A DNA stretch of 64,000 nucleotides from Arenicola marina. Its lineage: Eukaryota > Annelida > Polychaeta > Arenicolidae. The DNA is taken from contig OZ025256.1 in NCBI GenBank assembly GCA_964019135.1, forward strand, positions 19,785,911 to 19,849,910, in the 5' to 3' direction. The notes under the pieces are model-generated. The model did not search any database and was not told the origin of the DNA. It saw only the letters and a program-made list of their open reading frames with translations. Shown piece after piece: positions 4,143 to 60,340 of the stretch (positions within the stretch are counted from its first letter, which is position 1; every line of letters begins with the position of its first letter). Made by a program: the position numbers and the translations under genes.

Positions 4143-6079
4143 AGTAATTGTCTAGAATAATAATTTTGTTGTAGTTTGCGAATCCATGTATGCTGTGCGT
4201 ATCTATTTTAGAGAGAACATTGGTCGGCTCATTATTAATTAGATCAACAAGACTATGTCTGATACACTTAAGGGCAAAGGAATGTCTGGCTCTACTGGTA
4301 AAAACATACGATTTACGTCTGGTATTATGATGGTGTATATCACAAAGCGAAGTGAGCGGTAGATTCAAAAAGTATGCTGGAAGAATTCCCTTCTTTTGTT
4401 TGCAATAACATTTTAGCAACTGTAGTTTATGTATGTTTGTTATCTCTAGGCATCACCGTTGTTTAAACAAAGGCTCGGAGTGCGCATTCCATTTACTTAG
4501 CGTAATAGTCCTCATTGCCTTTTTCTGTAATCTAAACAGACTGGTGTTGTCATAACCCCATAGTAGGACCCCTGTTGTTAGATGAGGCAGAATCAATGAA
4601 TTATACAGGCTTAGTAAAGCGTGTTGGGGAAGATAATGTTTCAGTCTATGCATAATGAATTAAAAAGTTCACTACACTGTTCTATATCATTATGAATAAT
4701 AATGGCCCTTGTGGTACACCGGTCGTTATGTTCGTCATGTTTGACGTGACGTCATCCAGAAAAACACATTGCGATCTATGTATTAAATAGTTTTCCAGCA
4801 AATTGAGGGTCATTCCTCGGATTCCGTAATGATTTATTTTTTTGATTAATATGTCGTGATCAATAGTGTCGAAGGCCTTAGAAAGATCAAGGAAATTGCT
4901 AATGGGAAGTTGGTTTTGATCCTTTGATATGAAGACACGATCTACTACCTGTAAAACAGCTAGGTCAGTCGAATGTTTGGAGCGGAATCCGTATTGACTA
5001 TTGCTAAACATTTATTTGTGTCCAAGTAACTATAGAGTTGGTTAGCAATTATTTTCTCAAAAACCTTAGACATGGCTGGCAAAATGGATATTGGACGATA
5101 GTTGCTAATATCATTTTCATTACCCTTCTTATAAACTGGTACAACTTTGTACAACAATTTCCAGTTTAGACGGAAAGATGCCTGTTGCAAGTGAATGATT
5201 CACAATAAAGCTCAGGGCTACAGAGATTTCATCTTTAATCAATTTTACAAGGTTAACAGAAAGAGAATCGACGCCTTTACTGTGCTTAGGCTGAAGATTA
5301 TGTATAACATCGATCACAGTGTTCGTAGAAACGAATGTAAAGTTAAACTCGGTATTAGGCTTGCCTTTAAGATAGTCTTCAAATCGACGAGAAGTTTTTA
5401 TCAAATTTGCCTTTGCAAGGTCTTGACCAGCCGTAGCAAAAAAGGAAATAAATTTCTCACAAATTGTTAAGCGATCAGTGATTTCATAATTATCAAATTG
5501 TATAGACTTGTATAGGGAAAGTCCTTTTATGGTTTGAAAGTTTGAGTAAATCTTTCAGGGTACTCCAGGTCTTTTTTATATCATTTTTGCAGCTGAGGAA
5601 TCGACCATTATTATAATGACGCTTTGCTAAATAAATATTTCGTTTTAGGATGCGATCATACGTTTTGAGATTAGTTTTATAAGTCTCATATAATGGAGAA
5701 TCTAGCGGCGTTCCTCTTACTATTTTATACACTTTATCTCAGAATTTAATCGATTTCATAATACCCTAAGTTATCAAAGATTTGATTTGTGCTTAAATGA
5801 TCTGAACTTAACTACATTAGAAGGAATATGTTTTTCTCTGGCACGAAGGACAGACCTTTCTAGTATTTCGTAATTCTCATTAGGGTCAGATGTCATTATT
5901 TAGCATGTTTTCGATTGCCATAGATTCTACTTCCTTTTTGAAGTTTGAAACTGAAACCGGATCTTGGCAAACTACTTTGACCATTTTCCTCCCAACTTGA
6001 CGGGAATGTTCATATTTGACACACAAGAAGTAGGGCGGTCTAGTCCCAGGCCCGAATGGACTGCGAAAGTTCTACCCGC

Positions 6080-6145
6080 AGAGGCGGTTTTCGAACCGGG
6101 GACCTTTCGCATCCCGAGCGAACACCTTGCGCGTTAGGCCAAAGG
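6080..6145 (-). other. tRNA-like segment within the downstream LTR
   Basis: The minus strand has a B-box-like GGTTCGAA (6097-6090) and an A-box-like TGGCCTAACGCGCAAGG (6141-6125). Between them TTCGC and GCGAA can pair around a 7-nt loop, like an anticodon arm, and AGGTCCCCGG follows as in a T arm. The arrangement is closest by eye to a proline tRNA. Flanking acceptor pairing is poor, so it is a promoter-like relic and not a tRNA gene. Confidence 0.65.
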
Positions 6146-6395
6146 GAACTTCCCATTTGGCCCGAGGCGCTTGGTGTCTTTCATCCACCGGGCCTGGGCC
6201 GAGATATCACACTCCACCCTTTCCCCAATGGACTGCGACCTCGCAGTAACCGCCACCATGCGCCACGCCGTCAAACCGGACGCTGGCCATATCCTATGGC
6301 TCCGGGTGGTTCCGACAACCCAGGCTCGTCTCCATCGGCACCAAATGTAGTATTTCTGGTCCCAGGCCCGAATGGACGCCGAAAGTTCTACCCGC

Positions 6396-6461
6396 AGAGG
6401 CGGGTTTCGAACCGGGGACCTTTCGCATCCCGAGCGAACACCTTGCGCGTTAGGCCAAAGG
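6396..6461 (-). other. tRNA-like segment within the upstream LTR
   Basis: This is the second copy of the tRNA-like block, with B box at 6413-6406 and A box at 6457-6441. Being in the upstream LTR, it could in principle drive RNA polymerase III transcription into the element, as the 5S-derived promoter does in the plant Cassandra TRIMs. That comparison is inference. Confidence 0.65.
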
Positions 6462-7367
6462 GAACTTCCCATTTGGCCCGAGGCGCTTGGTGTCTTTCAT
6501 CCACCGGGCCTGGGCCGAGATATCACAATCCGACATGGGGTTTATAATGACAACCGCTAGTGACTGTTAAGTTGTCACAGATATTGCAATAAAAATTATC
6601 AATCAAGGTAGCACGTAATCTTGACAGTCTGGTTGGCAATGTAATTTTGGGAAAGAACCCACATGCCAACACGGCGTCAAAAAATTCCGCCACAGATGGT
6701 TTTTCATTAATTCAAAAAAAAATCTTATTGTTATAATCACCAGAGATAGCAAAAGATAGCTTCTTTGTACGGTTAAAATATGCAAGCGTGTTAGACATTT
6801 GTTCAGAAAAAATCTTATAGCTCTCCACGAGTTCGAGCAGAGGCCTGTAGATATTTCCAATTACAATATTCTTACTCATGGAAGCAGTTTTCATCTCAAT
6901 AAATCGACCTTCCCATCTCGTTTTTTCACCAGGTACAGATAACAGTTCATATCCAAATGTACTATCCAAATATATGACTAATCCACCATGTGCACTACAC
7001 GTTTTGGTTTGAGAGATTGTGTGATACCCTTCAAGATGTAAATGGCTAAGATCATCGTCATCTGACAGCCAACTCTCTTGTATACAGATAGCATGTAATC
7101 TAACTTTTCGTTTTCTTAATTCATCGATGAAGATTCTTAATTCATCTATCTTAGCTGATAATGAGCAAATATTGACACTTAGAATGTTGAAATGACTTTC
7201 GTTGCTCATGGTACTTTCTACAGAGTCTACTTCAAAGTAGGGGGAGTGCTTTAGAATACACGGCTCAGGGTCGTCAACCTCGGTTTCCTCACGATCGGTA
7301 CGATTTTCAAGAATATTAGTTAAGGAATTTGAATTTAGATCTCCGTACTGTTTTAAAATAAATTCAT

Positions 7368-7706
7368 CTAACCTCTTCTCCATGTCCCATTAGTACATTT
7401 TGTCTTGAATTTAAATCCTGAAAGCCTGTAGGCTATCCGGAGAGAAGCAATTTGGTCACCGGAGCAGAAGTTGGTGGCCGGCTTTATATCCCTGCGCGCC
7501 TGTTCGCCGTTCGGTATTTTGTGTGTGATGTCGACCGCGGCTCGCTATCACGTCCACGCGATAAAAATAAACCGCGAAATTTTCTATGTAAAAATGTTTG
7601 TTTCACAGACTCAAAGAGATATACAACATATGCATCATAATTTTTGAGATACTTTTTGTCTTGATTCTAAAATGTAATAAATCTAAGATGGCGCATATTG
7701 CTTTAA
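7368..7706 (+). mobile_element. TTAA-type MITE, left end missing
   Basis: The right end reads ATATTGCTTTAA (7695-7706) and the body matches the complete copy at 52663-53043. About the first 40 bp are missing and replaced by the 5' end of the CR1-type LINE. The join falls in AACCTCTTCTCCAT (7370-7383), which occurs in the MITE and also supplies the first codons of the LINE-derived minus-strand frame. Confidence 0.85.
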
Positions 7707-13200: not shown

Positions 13201-16200
13201 AGCTAGACAGTTCCTATGATCCAATGACCCACCGACGACAACGTAACCTTTGAAACCGTGATACCTAAACTACCGTAGAACCGCGGCTGCGTGTTCATGC
13301 GGTGTGCAGTCGCAGGCCCCGGGAAGCCGGCTTTCGATCGGACTACCGTAGAACCGCGGCTGCGTGTTCATGCGGTGTGCAGTCGCAGGCGCCGGGAAGC
13401 CGGCTTTCGATCGGACTACCGTAGAACCGCGGTTGCGTGTTCATGCGGTGTGCAGTCGCAGGCCCCGGGAAGCCGGCTTTCGATCGGACTACCGTAGAAC
13501 CGCGGCTGGGTGTTCATGCGGTGCGCATGTGCAGGACCTGTTGGTTATGTTTACGCTAAATAGCACGCATTGGCGGTTCTAGGTTAGGGGTCTGGAAGGG
13601 GTATATGGCGACACGCGACGCAGGCATATTTGAAAAATCGACATTCGACATTGACCCTCAAAAATTCCGACACTGAGGATCTGAAAAAAAGATATCGACA
13701 TAGATTGCGGCTTTTGAGAAAAAAAACGACACTGAACTTAGTCACAGAGCGTCGTGAAGAATCGACATACGATAGTGAGAATTATGAAAAATCGACACTG
13801 GACACTGGACGCCCCCCCCCCCCCCGTTCCTGACCACTTAGGTTACTCAGGCGGCGTACGGCATCTGCACACCGCATGAACACCCAACATGAACATCCAG
13901 TCGCACAGATGTTATTGCTGCTCTGGGCTGCTGGTTGCGATAAGGAAACACATAGCTATGATACAATGATATTTGGCGGGCCTACAACGTAACTCAAATA
14001 TCGCCAACAACCTACCAGTCAAATTTGCAATTGCGAACAAGTCGGTCTCGCGCCGTAAGTTTACGAATTCAATATAAGTTTCACAATTTTTCTTAAAATG
14101 CAGTGAAAATTAAATTAAAGGCTTTTACAAATATGATAATAATCATATAAATTAGAACCACTTAAGAAATCGGAAAGTATTTTCCTCGTTGCATCACTGG
14201 GAATAACGAAAACATCAGATAACAATAATTAGTAAACTGCTTTCAGATTTCACGTAATCACACTTATACCCGTAAAATATTAAATTTACAGCAAATCGAT
14301 ATGCCACCTACGAGGCAAGATGGAATAAAATCATGACAATTGGTAAACAGATTTCTGTCATTGTTTGTTTATATATCGGTCGTCTTTCAGATGGCTTATG
14401 ACGCCGGAGTCAGCACCCAGACGTGTCTCTATGTCTACGCCGGGGTGATGACGATCCATCTGCTGGACACACTCTTCCTCATGCCCTCCTACAAGGTCAC
14501 AGAGGCAGCGGAGCTTCGCCGAGGTGGGGACACTCACACGGCCACGTGTAATGATATATTATATCATGGCCCAATCATATTTGTGAGCAAGTTGGAGATA
14601 AGTGATCAGATTACAGACTTCTGCCAAGTGATTTAGTGCCTCAATAGCATACTAGCAAAGCATAATTACAATATACCATAAACCCCACAAAATATTATTT
14701 TTAAAGAGAATGAGAATGAGAAAGAGAAAGAGAATGAGAAGGAAAAAAGACATGAAAGAATGAGAAGCAGTACAAGGAGCGAGAGATATTTCTAGATATA
14801 TATATATGTTTCATGCCACCCTCAACAGTACGAAGCGACCAGCACAGTATTGCAATGGAGATGTCCTCGAGCAGCGGTCAGAGCCAAGAAGACTCACAAG
14901 AGGACGGCGCTTCGACCAAGTGTTCAAAGGCTGCCGCTCTCGACGTAGAATCCGTTGGAGAAAATTCCGAGGCTCTGACCTTCAAGCGGATAATCATGTC
15001 GACGTTATACGTGAACCATGTGCTGTGGTTCACAATCATCCAGTTGAACTTCTGGTATATCCTTTCCAGTTTCTTCCCGTGGTTAAGCTACATTTCTGCT
15101 GGTCGGTCAACCGAAGGTAAGGGAGTCGGACAGTGAGTGTGAGTGTTAAAATGTGCGTGTATAAGTTGATTGTTGTGGGATAAGTATATTTTTGTTATTT
15201 ATCTTGCTTCCTGCCTTAATGTTGTTCATTTATATCTTCTCTGATTCTCTCCTACTCGTTTTTCAGTCAACGCCCAAACATTGATCTTCCAGTATGCCAA
15301 CATCCTGGTAATTCTGTGCCCTATGATTGGCTGGGTAACCGATGTTGTCATTGCCTACAGAGATAAGCGAGCTGTTTTCCAAAGTGAGTTACTGTGCATT
15401 CGTCGTTGGTTTGGAAGTGCTGCCAAGAGGGATAATTTCATTGGCGTTTCATTGATGATTGATCAAAAAGGAATCATATACTGATGTCATTGTTACAAAA
15501 TATCTTTATCAATTGATTAATTTCAATGTCACGCTTCTTTTCTTGTTATATATGTAACATGTTTTACTGCAAGATTAAATTTCTCCTGTCAGGTGGATCA
15601 TTGGATAGCGTTAAGGAAGATGTAAGCCTAATAGTTACCGGAAAAGATCCGAGGAAAGGTAGGTTATGCTTCAATAAATATAAAGGATGGACTAAAATTG
15701 TTCGGGAGCGGGTTGATGCGTAATCGCAAATACATGCGCTGTTTTCTCTTATGTGTTTATGGTGCTTATGGATTTACTTGGAAGGTATTGTGGCAGTTTA
15801 TATATCCCTTCTGACACCACTCTATTTTTATTCGCTGGCGTGCGATGTCAAAACAGAGAAAACGTATTTCATTTCTTGGTTGTTTATTCCAATCACAATC
15901 CGGTTGCAAAGATATGTATATTTACTTTCCCCTGCTGAATTTCTAACATTGTTATCCTAATTTCTCGGTCGATGAAGATGAAGATGTGATGATCTCTCTC
16001 TTGCTCACGATCCCAACCCCTTATTTATACTAGCTAGGCCAGGAGCCCCTCCACCCCTACAGGGACCCCTTGGCAACGTCAAAATTCTCCCCCACCCCCA
16101 CTAACGCGGAGGGGACCCCCCTGGCACCCTCGGGATCCCCCCACTCCTACTAAAGCTGAGGGGACCCTCCCCTGGCAACGTCAGGATTCTCTCCCCACCC

Positions 16201-58260: not shown

Positions 58261-58320
58261 TACCATGACTACTAGTAGTACTAATAGTATGACTGCTTTT
58301 GTTGCTTTACTACTAGTAGT

Positions 58321-60120
58321 ACTGCTACTAGTATTATTACTATTATTAATACTGGACCCAGTATTATTACTATTATTAATACTGCACCCAGTATTATTAC
58401 TATTATTAATACTGCACTCAGTATTGTTACTATTATTAATACTGCACTCAGTATTATTACTATTATTAATACTGGACCCAGTATTGTTACTATTATTAAT
58501 ACTGCACCCAGTATTATTACTATTATTAATACTGCACCCAGTATTATTACTATTATTAATACTGCACCCAGTATTATTACTATTATTAATACTGCACTCA
58601 GTATTATTACTATTATTAATACTGCACCCAGTATTATTACTATTATTAATACTGCACCCAGTATTATTACTATTATTAATACTGCACCCAGTATTATTAC
58701 TATTATTAATACTGCACCCAGTATTATTACTATTATTAATACTGCACTCAGTATTGTTACTATTATTAATACTGCACTCAGTATTATTACTATTATTAAT
58801 ACTGGACCCAGTATTGTTACTATTATTAATACTGCACCCAGTATTATTACTATTATTAATACTGCACCCAGTATTATTACTATTATTAATACTGCACTCA
58901 GTATTATTACTATTATTAATACTGCACCCAGTATTATTACTATTATTAATACTGCACCCAGTATTATTACTATTATTAATACTGCACCCAGTATTATTAC
59001 TATTATTAATACTGCACCCAGTATTATTACTATTATTAATACTGCACCCAGTATTATTACTATTATTAATACTGCACTCAGTATTATTACTATTATTAAC
59101 ACTGCGCCCAGTATTATTACTATTATTAATACTGCACCCAGTATTATTACTATTATTAATACTGCACTCAGTATTATTACTATTATTAATACTGCACCCA
59201 GTATTATTACTATTATTAATACTGCACCCAGTATTATTACTATTATTAATACTGCACTCAGTATTATTACTATTATTAATACTGCACCCAGTATTATTAC
59301 TATTATTAATACTGCACCCAGTATTATTACTATTATTAATACTGCACCCAGTATTATTACTATTATTAATACTGCACCCAGTATTATTACTATTATTAAT
59401 ACTGCACCCAGTATTATTACTATTATTAATACTGGACCCAGTATTATTACTATTATTAATACTGCACCCAGTATTGTTACTATTATTAATACTGCACCCA
59501 GTGTTATTACTATTATTAATACTGGACCCAGTATTATTACTATTATTAATACCGCACCCAGTATTATTACTATTATTAATACTGCACCCAGTATTATTAC
59601 TATTATTAATACTGCACCCAGTATTGTTACTATTATTAATACTGCACCCAGTATTATTACTATTATTAATACTGGACCCAGTATTATTACTATTATTAAT
59701 ACTGGACCCAGTATTATTACTATTATTAATACTGGACCCAGTATTATTACTATTATTAATACTGCACCCAGTATTGTTACTATTATTAATACTGCACCCA
59801 GTATTATTACTATTATTAATACTGGACCCAGTATTATTACTATTATTAATACTGCACCCAGTATTGTTACTATTATTAATACTGCACCCAGTATTATTAC
59901 TATTATTAATACTGGACCCAGTATTATTACTATTATTAATACTGCACTCAGTATTGTTACTATTATTAATACTGCACCCAGTATTATTACTATTATTAAT
60001 ACTGCACCCAGTATTATTACTATTATTAATACTGCACTCAGTATTGTTACTATTATTAATACTGCACCCAGTATTATTACTATTATTAATACTGCACCCA
60101 GTATTATTACTATTATTAAT
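58321..60120 (+). repeat. Array of exactly sixty 30-bp units
   Basis: Each 30-bp unit is ACTGCACCCAGT followed by ATTATTACTATTATTAAT. There is not one insertion or deletion over 1800 bp. Units differ mainly at three sites: GGACCC/CACCC/CACTC in the first half and ATTATTAC/ATTGTTAC in the second. The first unit (58321-58350) is diverged. Because 30 is a multiple of 3, a 622-codon plus-strand frame and a 273-codon minus-strand frame stay open. Both encode a monotonous 10-residue period and are not credible genes. Variant order repeats over about 330 bp (58411 and 58741), a sign of segmental amplification. Confidence 0.97.
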
Positions 60121-60340
60121 ACGTACTATATGACTACTATGCCAGTTGTTACTGCTACTATGGCAACTGCTACTGCGAGTGCTATTGATTTAGCTACCTA
60201 TGAACGCAACTGCCGCTGTTCTTGTTACAACTAGTAATAGAATATCTATATTTTAGGGAGTGGCATTATGGCATAGAGATCGTGAGGTCTTGGTTCCATC
60301 TGGAGCCAAGCCTCTGGGTCTGTATGTCTCACTGCAGAAG
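60121..60340 (+). repeat. Family Y, copy 3, right part
   Basis: ACTACTATG-rich sequence, then GGGAGTGGCATTATGGCAT and CTTGGTTCCATCTGGAGCC, matching 24660-24810. It confirms that the 30-bp array lies inside family Y. Confidence 0.65.

Follow-up and report, generated by a model that had tools for sequence, protein, structure and literature searches.

A 64,000-nucleotide stretch of the genome of the annelid Arenicola marina (the window) contains two near-identical direct repeats bearing tRNA-like motifs. The question they raise is whether they are the long terminal repeats (LTRs) of a miniature retroelement (TRIM) transcribed by RNA polymerase III (pol III), or have a more ordinary origin. In our reading, the locus is very probably an annelid member of Helenus (TRIMp3), a kind of non-autonomous LTR retrotransposon, and would start transcription with pol III and depend on a Gypsy helper. 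Copies of the family have an LTR, a primer-binding site (PBS), a polypurine tract (PPT) and a second LTR in that order, together with 4-bp target duplications, solo LTRs, arrays, A and B boxes and a primer site complementary to tRNA-His. An earlier note on this DNA had matched it to no described family; the group had already been presented by Kojima 2024 (PMC10886601), where this architecture is named Helenus/TRIMp3.

The window element and its genomic family

The direct repeats, at 6039-6215 and 6355-6531, are 97% identical over 177 nt without a gap, bearing out the earlier note, which had two near-identical repeats within less than 490 bp. With LTR borders set by aligning the window locus with other copies from its own genome, the element is a 489-bp TRIM at 6039-6527 whose sense lies on the minus strand, an orientation that the earlier note had left unstated. 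On that strand, an LTR (6527-6346) is followed by a 134-nt internal region (6345-6212) and a second LTR (6211-6039). The 5′ LTR (6346..6527) is complete, running over 182 nt from TGTGATATC to AATACTACA and closing in TACTACA; the 3′ LTR (6039..6211), delimited from the repeats and the genomic copies, retains 173 of 182 nt and lacks the last nine (AATACTACA), and no target duplication was found around this copy with its missing 3′ end. After the first LTR comes the PBS-like stretch that had been noticed, beginning with eight nucleotides, TGGTGCCG (6336..6343, minus strand), complementary to the CCA end of host tRNA-His. Comparison of internal ends places a polypurine tract, GGGGAAAGGGTGGAG (6212..6226, minus strand), directly before the 3′ LTR; with its one T, it is not the pure purine run that had been reported. 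A 167-codon stop-free stretch overlapping the element on the plus strand is read as chance.

Other repeats lie elsewhere in the window. Likely non-LTR retrotransposon remnants occupy the minus strand at 1776-2531, where a zf-RVT domain was found, and at 6712-7389, which resembles an endonuclease by eye and matched no Pfam family. Tandem arrays comprise a 31-bp minisatellite (1075-1745, 21.8 copies), a near-identical unit of which adjoins a truncated Helenus LTR at another locus (L078), a 73-bp array (13269-13535, 3.7 copies) and a 30-bp array (58307-60122, 60.5 copies) that is open in several frames.

Markers elsewhere in the genome agree with an annelid host. On the 15,942-bp mitochondrial contig, cox1 was identified by a family search, the other protein genes by eye from their ORFs and the tRNAs by ARAGORN. 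The genes so named share one strand, and a large non-coding region separates tRNA-Arg from tRNA-His; both traits are stated for leeches or Clitellata in PMC4866719, which also gives a single protein-gene order for most annelids. Two ARAGORN calls on the opposite strand fall in the presumed large rRNA and in that non-coding region, and an additional call falls inside a protein gene. Four exons match the annelid erythrocruorin linker family, and one of them weakly matches solved haemoglobin linker L3 chains (28.9 bits), a score that speaks against Lumbricus itself. A scallop or sea urchin host was set aside in view of the mitochondrial gene order; sea-urchin bindin had no match here, nor in the control genomes.

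Genome-wide, the LTR 3′ terminus gave 1122 matches (at most two mismatches in 23 nt) against none for a reversed control, and the terminus followed by the primer site gave 407 (at most two mismatches) against 4. The excess of the first count over the second implies many solo LTRs, crudely about 300 given that the two search patterns are unequally tolerant. The whole window unit has at least 51 matches in its own genome, with 40 of 1175 candidates scored. We examined 70 loci (L001-L030 and L069-L108), chosen because they matched the window copy best or had exact LTR 3′ termini, and hence biased towards intact ends. Two or more LTR matches occur in 44 of these loci. Flanks are distinct in 39 of them, and 37 of those have both ends intact (in one, L087, the matches are parts of a single LTR interrupted by an insertion); exact 4-bp target duplications flank 31 of the 37. 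Solo LTRs account for a further 19 loci, 18 with distinct flanks and 12 of those 18 with exact 4-bp duplications, although the flanks of two, L074 and L102, are almost those of L069, leaving perhaps 16 independent cases. The remaining seven loci belong to neither class. A usual complete two-LTR copy measures 498 bp, with 182-nt LTRs that start with TGTGATATC and end with AATACTACA; sampled LTR lengths range from 156 to 201 nt, and head-to-tail arrays with three or four LTRs occur (e.g. L002, L103). The median divergence between the first and last LTR of one element is 2.7% (36 loci), and three pairs are identical, from which it follows that some insertions are recent.

These copies bear directly on the possibility that the locus is a SINE present twice side by side by chance. 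The earlier note had held that single units with their own target duplications would point that way, and single 182-nt-type units so flanked do exist, namely the 12 of 18 solos. The search it had proposed, for LTR-PBS-PPT-LTR pairs with duplications as well as for solo LTRs, yielded both, and the SINE account is refuted by the 37 distinct multi-LTR insertions, all complete, of which 31 have a 4-bp duplication enclosing the entire unit; the single units are for this reason best read as solo LTRs. The TG...CA ends, the correctly placed primer site and purine tract and the three- and four-LTR arrays likewise argue against a SINE, which is a single LINE-mobilised unit with no LTR, PBS or PPT and so unlike this family. 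We regard that account as next to impossible.

Two further observations concern the LTRs of this Helenus family. At about LTR positions 126-150, after the B box, copies have swapped in different palindrome-like sequences, which suggests a hairpin-prone spot. In L087 (C1:62064170-62065270), the insertion within the LTR is, by eye, an antisense tRNA-SINE-like sequence, and a similar sequence lies on the plus strand of the window at about 2514-2710 (also by eye); such an insertion is the kind of step proposed for the origin of tRNA-bearing LTRs.

tRNA-like boxes and the promoter question

The A-box- and B-box-like motifs that had been noticed in both repeats are indeed present in each LTR and lie on the minus strand. 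In the 5′ LTR, the A-box-like motif TGGCCTAACGCG (6446..6457) starts at LTR position 71 and the B-box-like motif GGTTCGAAACC, found by motif scan, lies at 6403..6413; in the 3′ LTR, the A-box-like motif is placed at 6130..6141 by register with the 5′ LTR, and the B-box-like motif at 6087..6097 has one mismatch in a 15-nt pattern. The canonical GGTTCGAATCC is carried by some LTRs. The box pair of the window LTR exceeds all 500 dinucleotide shuffles, with the A box in that test reported from an alternative start at LTR position 49 instead of 71. Across seven LTRs, six have pairs above nearly all shuffles (0 or 1 of 500 reach the score), and in L086, the most divergent tested, 66 of 500 shuffles reach it, leaving no excess over shuffles.

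Resemblance to an actual tRNA is a separate matter. The tRNA-like part of the LTR scores above all 300 shuffles against four of five host tRNAs (Cys, Arg, Ser, His and one unnamed by ARAGORN, so that Pro is not among them); against tRNA-His, 11 of 300 shuffles reach the score. Between the boxes, an anticodon-arm-like hairpin, TTCGC-TCGGGAT-GCGAA (6422..6438, minus strand), exists as the earlier note had described it, whereas its proposed likeness to tRNA-Pro is not specifically supported, as position 33 would be C. The hairpin is paired in a fold of the LTR 3′ part and unpaired in the whole-LTR fold, and a search for covariation in its support found none. No tRNA was called by ARAGORN in the window, and the covariance-model check that had been proposed came out negative: over 5900-6700, Rfam at E≤10 returned four matches, with neither a tRNA nor a 5S rRNA among them, and at E≤1 it returned no tRNA in five other loci.

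An ordinary TRIM transcribed by pol II, in which the tRNA-like part is the fossil of a SINE in an ancestral LTR and drives transcription no longer, is worth weighing, and we consider it rather unlikely. Besides the absence of an Rfam tRNA match, it gains from the L087 insertion, which by eye indicates that such SINE insertions happen, and from the boxes not being the best-conserved part of the LTR. Among 20 divergent LTRs, conservation is highest at the termini (0.975 and 0.977, the 3′ value being inflated by the choice of loci), above both boxes; the B box (0.927) slightly exceeds its neighbours (0.875 and 0.81), and the A box (0.883) falls below the stretch at 25-62 (0.908). Against this account, LTRs as little as about 85% identical to the window LTR still have a box pair scoring above nearly all shuffles. 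Moreover, AATAAA, ATTAAA and TATAA are all absent from the window element, and AATAAA, found in only 1 of 109 sampled LTRs, does occur in the LTR of the candidate helper described below.

Under the favoured Helenus reading, TFIIIC would bind the A and B boxes of the LTR, and pol III would start in the 5′ LTR, upstream of its A box, at roughly LTR nucleotides 55-60. The transcript would then cross the internal region and the 3′ LTR and end where the host flank first offers a T run, termination being placed there because the window element itself has none. Such pol III use, with read-through into the flank, is what we infer from sequence. The earlier claim of an animal TRIM with tRNA-type LTR sequence holds; its pol III competence stays at the level of a proposal. 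A sense-strand TTTT is missing from all 30 spans checked (three of them only one LTR long) and present in 5 of 109 sampled LTRs; this absence is unremarkable, with 329 of 1000 shuffles also free of TTTT. The first TTTT downstream lies at a median of 118 nt (30 loci, some of them the same insertion). The LTR RNA folds more strongly than its shuffles (z -6.76), an excess probably due to the inverted repeats that form the LTR ends; with two-sided change in none of 38 consensus pairs, we do not claim a selected fold.

Primer site, tRNA-His and a candidate helper

A host tRNA-His gene was located and read in the genome. The last 18 nt of its tRNA, including CCA, are complementary at 18 of 18 positions to the primer site of five copies (L088, L093, L097, L104 and L105) and at 17 of 18 to that of L075. 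In some copies the complement continues well beyond this point, matching 33 of 34 nt in L104, 32 with a 2-nt gap in L088, L093 and L097, and all 34 in four copies that a pattern search turned up (L122, L123, L125 and L126, the first two being near-identical duplicates). This is nearly twice the usual 18 nt. Past 34 nt, towards the anticodon, 6 of 9 further nucleotides are complementary in L093, which is suggestive only of a complement reaching that far.

The window copy has a split version of this leader, TGGTGCCG-ATGGAGA-CGAGCCTGGGTTGTC, in which the eight nucleotides of the first segment are followed by a second, CGAGCCTGGGTTGTC (6314..6328, minus strand), that is complementary at 14 of 15 positions to tRNA-His in its T-loop, T-stem and variable part, with a G-U pair possible at the remaining one. 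Among nine leaders scored for complementarity, eight are reached by none of 1000 shuffles and the window leader by one; when the second segment is scored by itself, the window value is reached by 1 of 2000 shuffles and that of copy L024 by none. The 36 distinct internal regions fall into 25 of window type (22 with segment 2), six of His type (four with it) and five others (one with it; four of the five are mis-cut or antisense pieces), and this sample leans to the window type because L001-L030 were the best window matches. A tRNA-Phe primer for the window copy, suggested by 9 nt, was dropped in view of the 18/18 match of host tRNA-His in sister copies.

How might so long a complement arise? 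Plus-strand synthesis normally halts at m1A58 of the primer tRNA and proceeds further if the modifying enzyme is mutated, and lentiviruses and spumaviruses have a primer over-extension sequence beside the PBS (PMC13191261). The Helenus complement may stem from plus-strand synthesis that continued along the primer tRNA beyond nucleotide 58, where it usually stops, and may now help to hold the primer. We tentatively propose that the leader is a copied primer: a 34-nt colinear anti-tRNA-His sequence, spanning the CCA end through the variable region and perhaps reaching the anticodon, that was acquired by read-through of the modified nucleotide 58 and later remodelled to 8 + 15 nt in the commonest sampled subfamily. 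If true, this leader would document naturally occurring primer read-through in an element that depends on Gypsy and is promoted by pol III.

It is comparably possible that the extended complement is an inserted fragment of an antisense tRNA-His pseudogene, or a sequence selected for pairing with the primer. A tRNA-His-like copy with an encoded CCA does exist outside Helenus (L124), and selected pairing has parallels in the retroviral over-extension sequences and in the bipartite primer sites of Ty1 and Ty3, of which the Ty3 site is not perpetuated through tRNA copying (PMC5371799). Furthermore, in HIV only those plus-strand products that end at nucleotides 58, 55 or 54 are functional templates, and longer products, to nucleotide 37 or the tRNA 5′ end, are inactive as such (PMC13191261). 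This template limit and the non-renewal in Ty3 both speak against a copied origin, unless the long complement itself makes longer products usable, which would lift the objection. What weighs against an inserted fragment or selected pairing is that the complement is colinear, begins exactly at the primer site and is perfect over 34 nt in four copies. Among the titles listed in a literature search, none deals with extended primer sites in LTR retrotransposons, which does not prove their absence.

Variation at tRNA position 58 was also considered. The genome pattern returned 12 sites with 2 nt missing (9 of them seen as pattern matches only), 2 with A and 5 with T (one of these not Helenus), and the four sampled copies comprise three with the 2-nt gap (L088, L093 and L097) and one with A (L104). 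Its interpretation as an m1A58 signature was dropped, given that the pattern allowed variation only there and the other sample numbers four.

Sequences related to tRNAs are found elsewhere in the genome. The copy at L124 (C7:2656500-2656850) lies outside any Helenus LTR and is possibly a retrocopy. A tRNA-His T-arm pattern occurs at 156 places (at most two mismatches), with tandem arrays at C20:28148326-28225176 and C1:17134650-17156586 (spacing about 0.9 and 1.3 kb); in L121, the one T-arm-array locus read, ARAGORN called two tRNA-His genes. Another tandem array, with a period of about 1.34 kb, spans C3:29958398-30002839 (L038-L066), and its scanned loci L038 and L050 contain a tRNA-Cys or Ser(GCT) variant, an antisense tRNA-Arg(ACG) and one unassigned tRNA.

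A candidate helper emerged from L091, a Helenus-ended locus beyond whose end lies the 3′ part of some longer element. A relative was found on contig C7. Its two LTRs, each 606 nt long and 99.6% identical across a compared 480 nt, start with TGTAGTATTTTCT, end with GAGAAATATTACA and have AATAAA; the element is flanked on both sides by the 4-bp duplication CGTT. After its first LTR and one C stands TGGTGCCGTGACCAGGAT, identical at 18 of 18 positions to the primer site of the five copies that fully match tRNA-His. A 429-codon pol piece contains RVT_1, RT_RNaseH and RT_RNaseH_2 domains and is, by our reading, of Ty3/Gypsy type. The LTR 3′ ends agree at 11 of 12 nt (helper AGAAATATTACA, Helenus AGAAATACTACA), and the window LTR and the first 601-nt helper piece share just two 10-nt matches. 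The Helenus internal regions of L028 and L108 match helper-type DNA at 31 of 39 nt (E 3e-5), and the window internal region showed no match to it. A genome search for the window-type primer site outside Helenus gave one match against two for the control, and did not reveal the helper.

The similar LTR end and the shared primer site and duplication length make the C7 element a likely helper and fit the Gypsy dependence published for animal Helenus (PMC10886601). Its Ty3/Gypsy particles would package the element RNA, tRNA-His would prime the copying of that RNA, and the helper's integrase would insert the product. The locus represented by L091 and L109 (C2:1542420-1546500) is itself a chimera, in which a Helenus LTR and a piece of primer site lead into the 3′ portion of the Gypsy helper, a junction that could be plain recombination. 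The chimeric locus has an open ORF of more than 730 codons, downstream of the point at which pol ends in sister copies; no Pfam family was found there above the cut-off.

Comparison with known systems

The annelid element adds to the known Helenus group, in a host phylum beyond Table 1 of PMC10886601, from which Annelida are absent; the idea itself is not new. The assignment rests on structure (boxes, PBS/PPT and duplications) as distinct from a match to published consensus sequences. Helenus elements are TRIMs of 311-1263 bp (here 498 bp, with no protein genes) with tRNA-like A and B boxes in their LTRs (here with no tRNA model match). They share a PBS and PPT at the internal ends, a PBS of Gypsy type, solo LTRs and, in animals, 4-bp duplications (here 31/37 multi-LTR and 12/18 solo insertions). 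tRNA-His serves as primer in bivalve and vertebrate families, and tandem arrays are described for LTR-11_DR (PMC10886601). By that paper's own statement, pol III transcription of Helenus is without experimental validation. An extended tRNA complement was not encountered in its text and tables, and we found no description of one for the Helenus group in the literature; nor did we find Helenus reports beyond PMC10886601. A polychaete transposon survey mentions TRIMs in passing only, and tRNA was not found in an annelid paper touching on 'retrotransposons in miniature'.

Cassandra of plants is likewise a TRIM with a pol III promoter in its LTR; it differs in that the promoter is of 5S rRNA type and the terminator lies in the 3′ LTR (PMC10886601), whereas here the promoter-like sequence is of tRNA type and the window element is free of T runs. 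biv-TRIM (PMC6934838) is also an animal TRIM, but is described with no unambiguous PBS and with its tRNA similarity in the inner domain. The lentiviral and spumaviral over-extension sequence resembles the long complement in continuing the match to the primer tRNA past an 18-nt PBS, and differs in adding a few further nucleotides at most (PMC13191261), against up to 16 here.

Most likely, then, an annelid joins the hosts of TRIMs with tRNA-type promoters. Element, likely Gypsy helper, host primer tRNA and a range of subfamilies all come from a single genome. A long LTR stretch common to such TRIMs and their helpers was considered unlikely by Kojima (PMC10886601), and the sharing seen here, little beyond the 3′ terminus, can be set beside that view. 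Finally, the long primer complement makes the renewal and extension of primer sites testable outside viruses.
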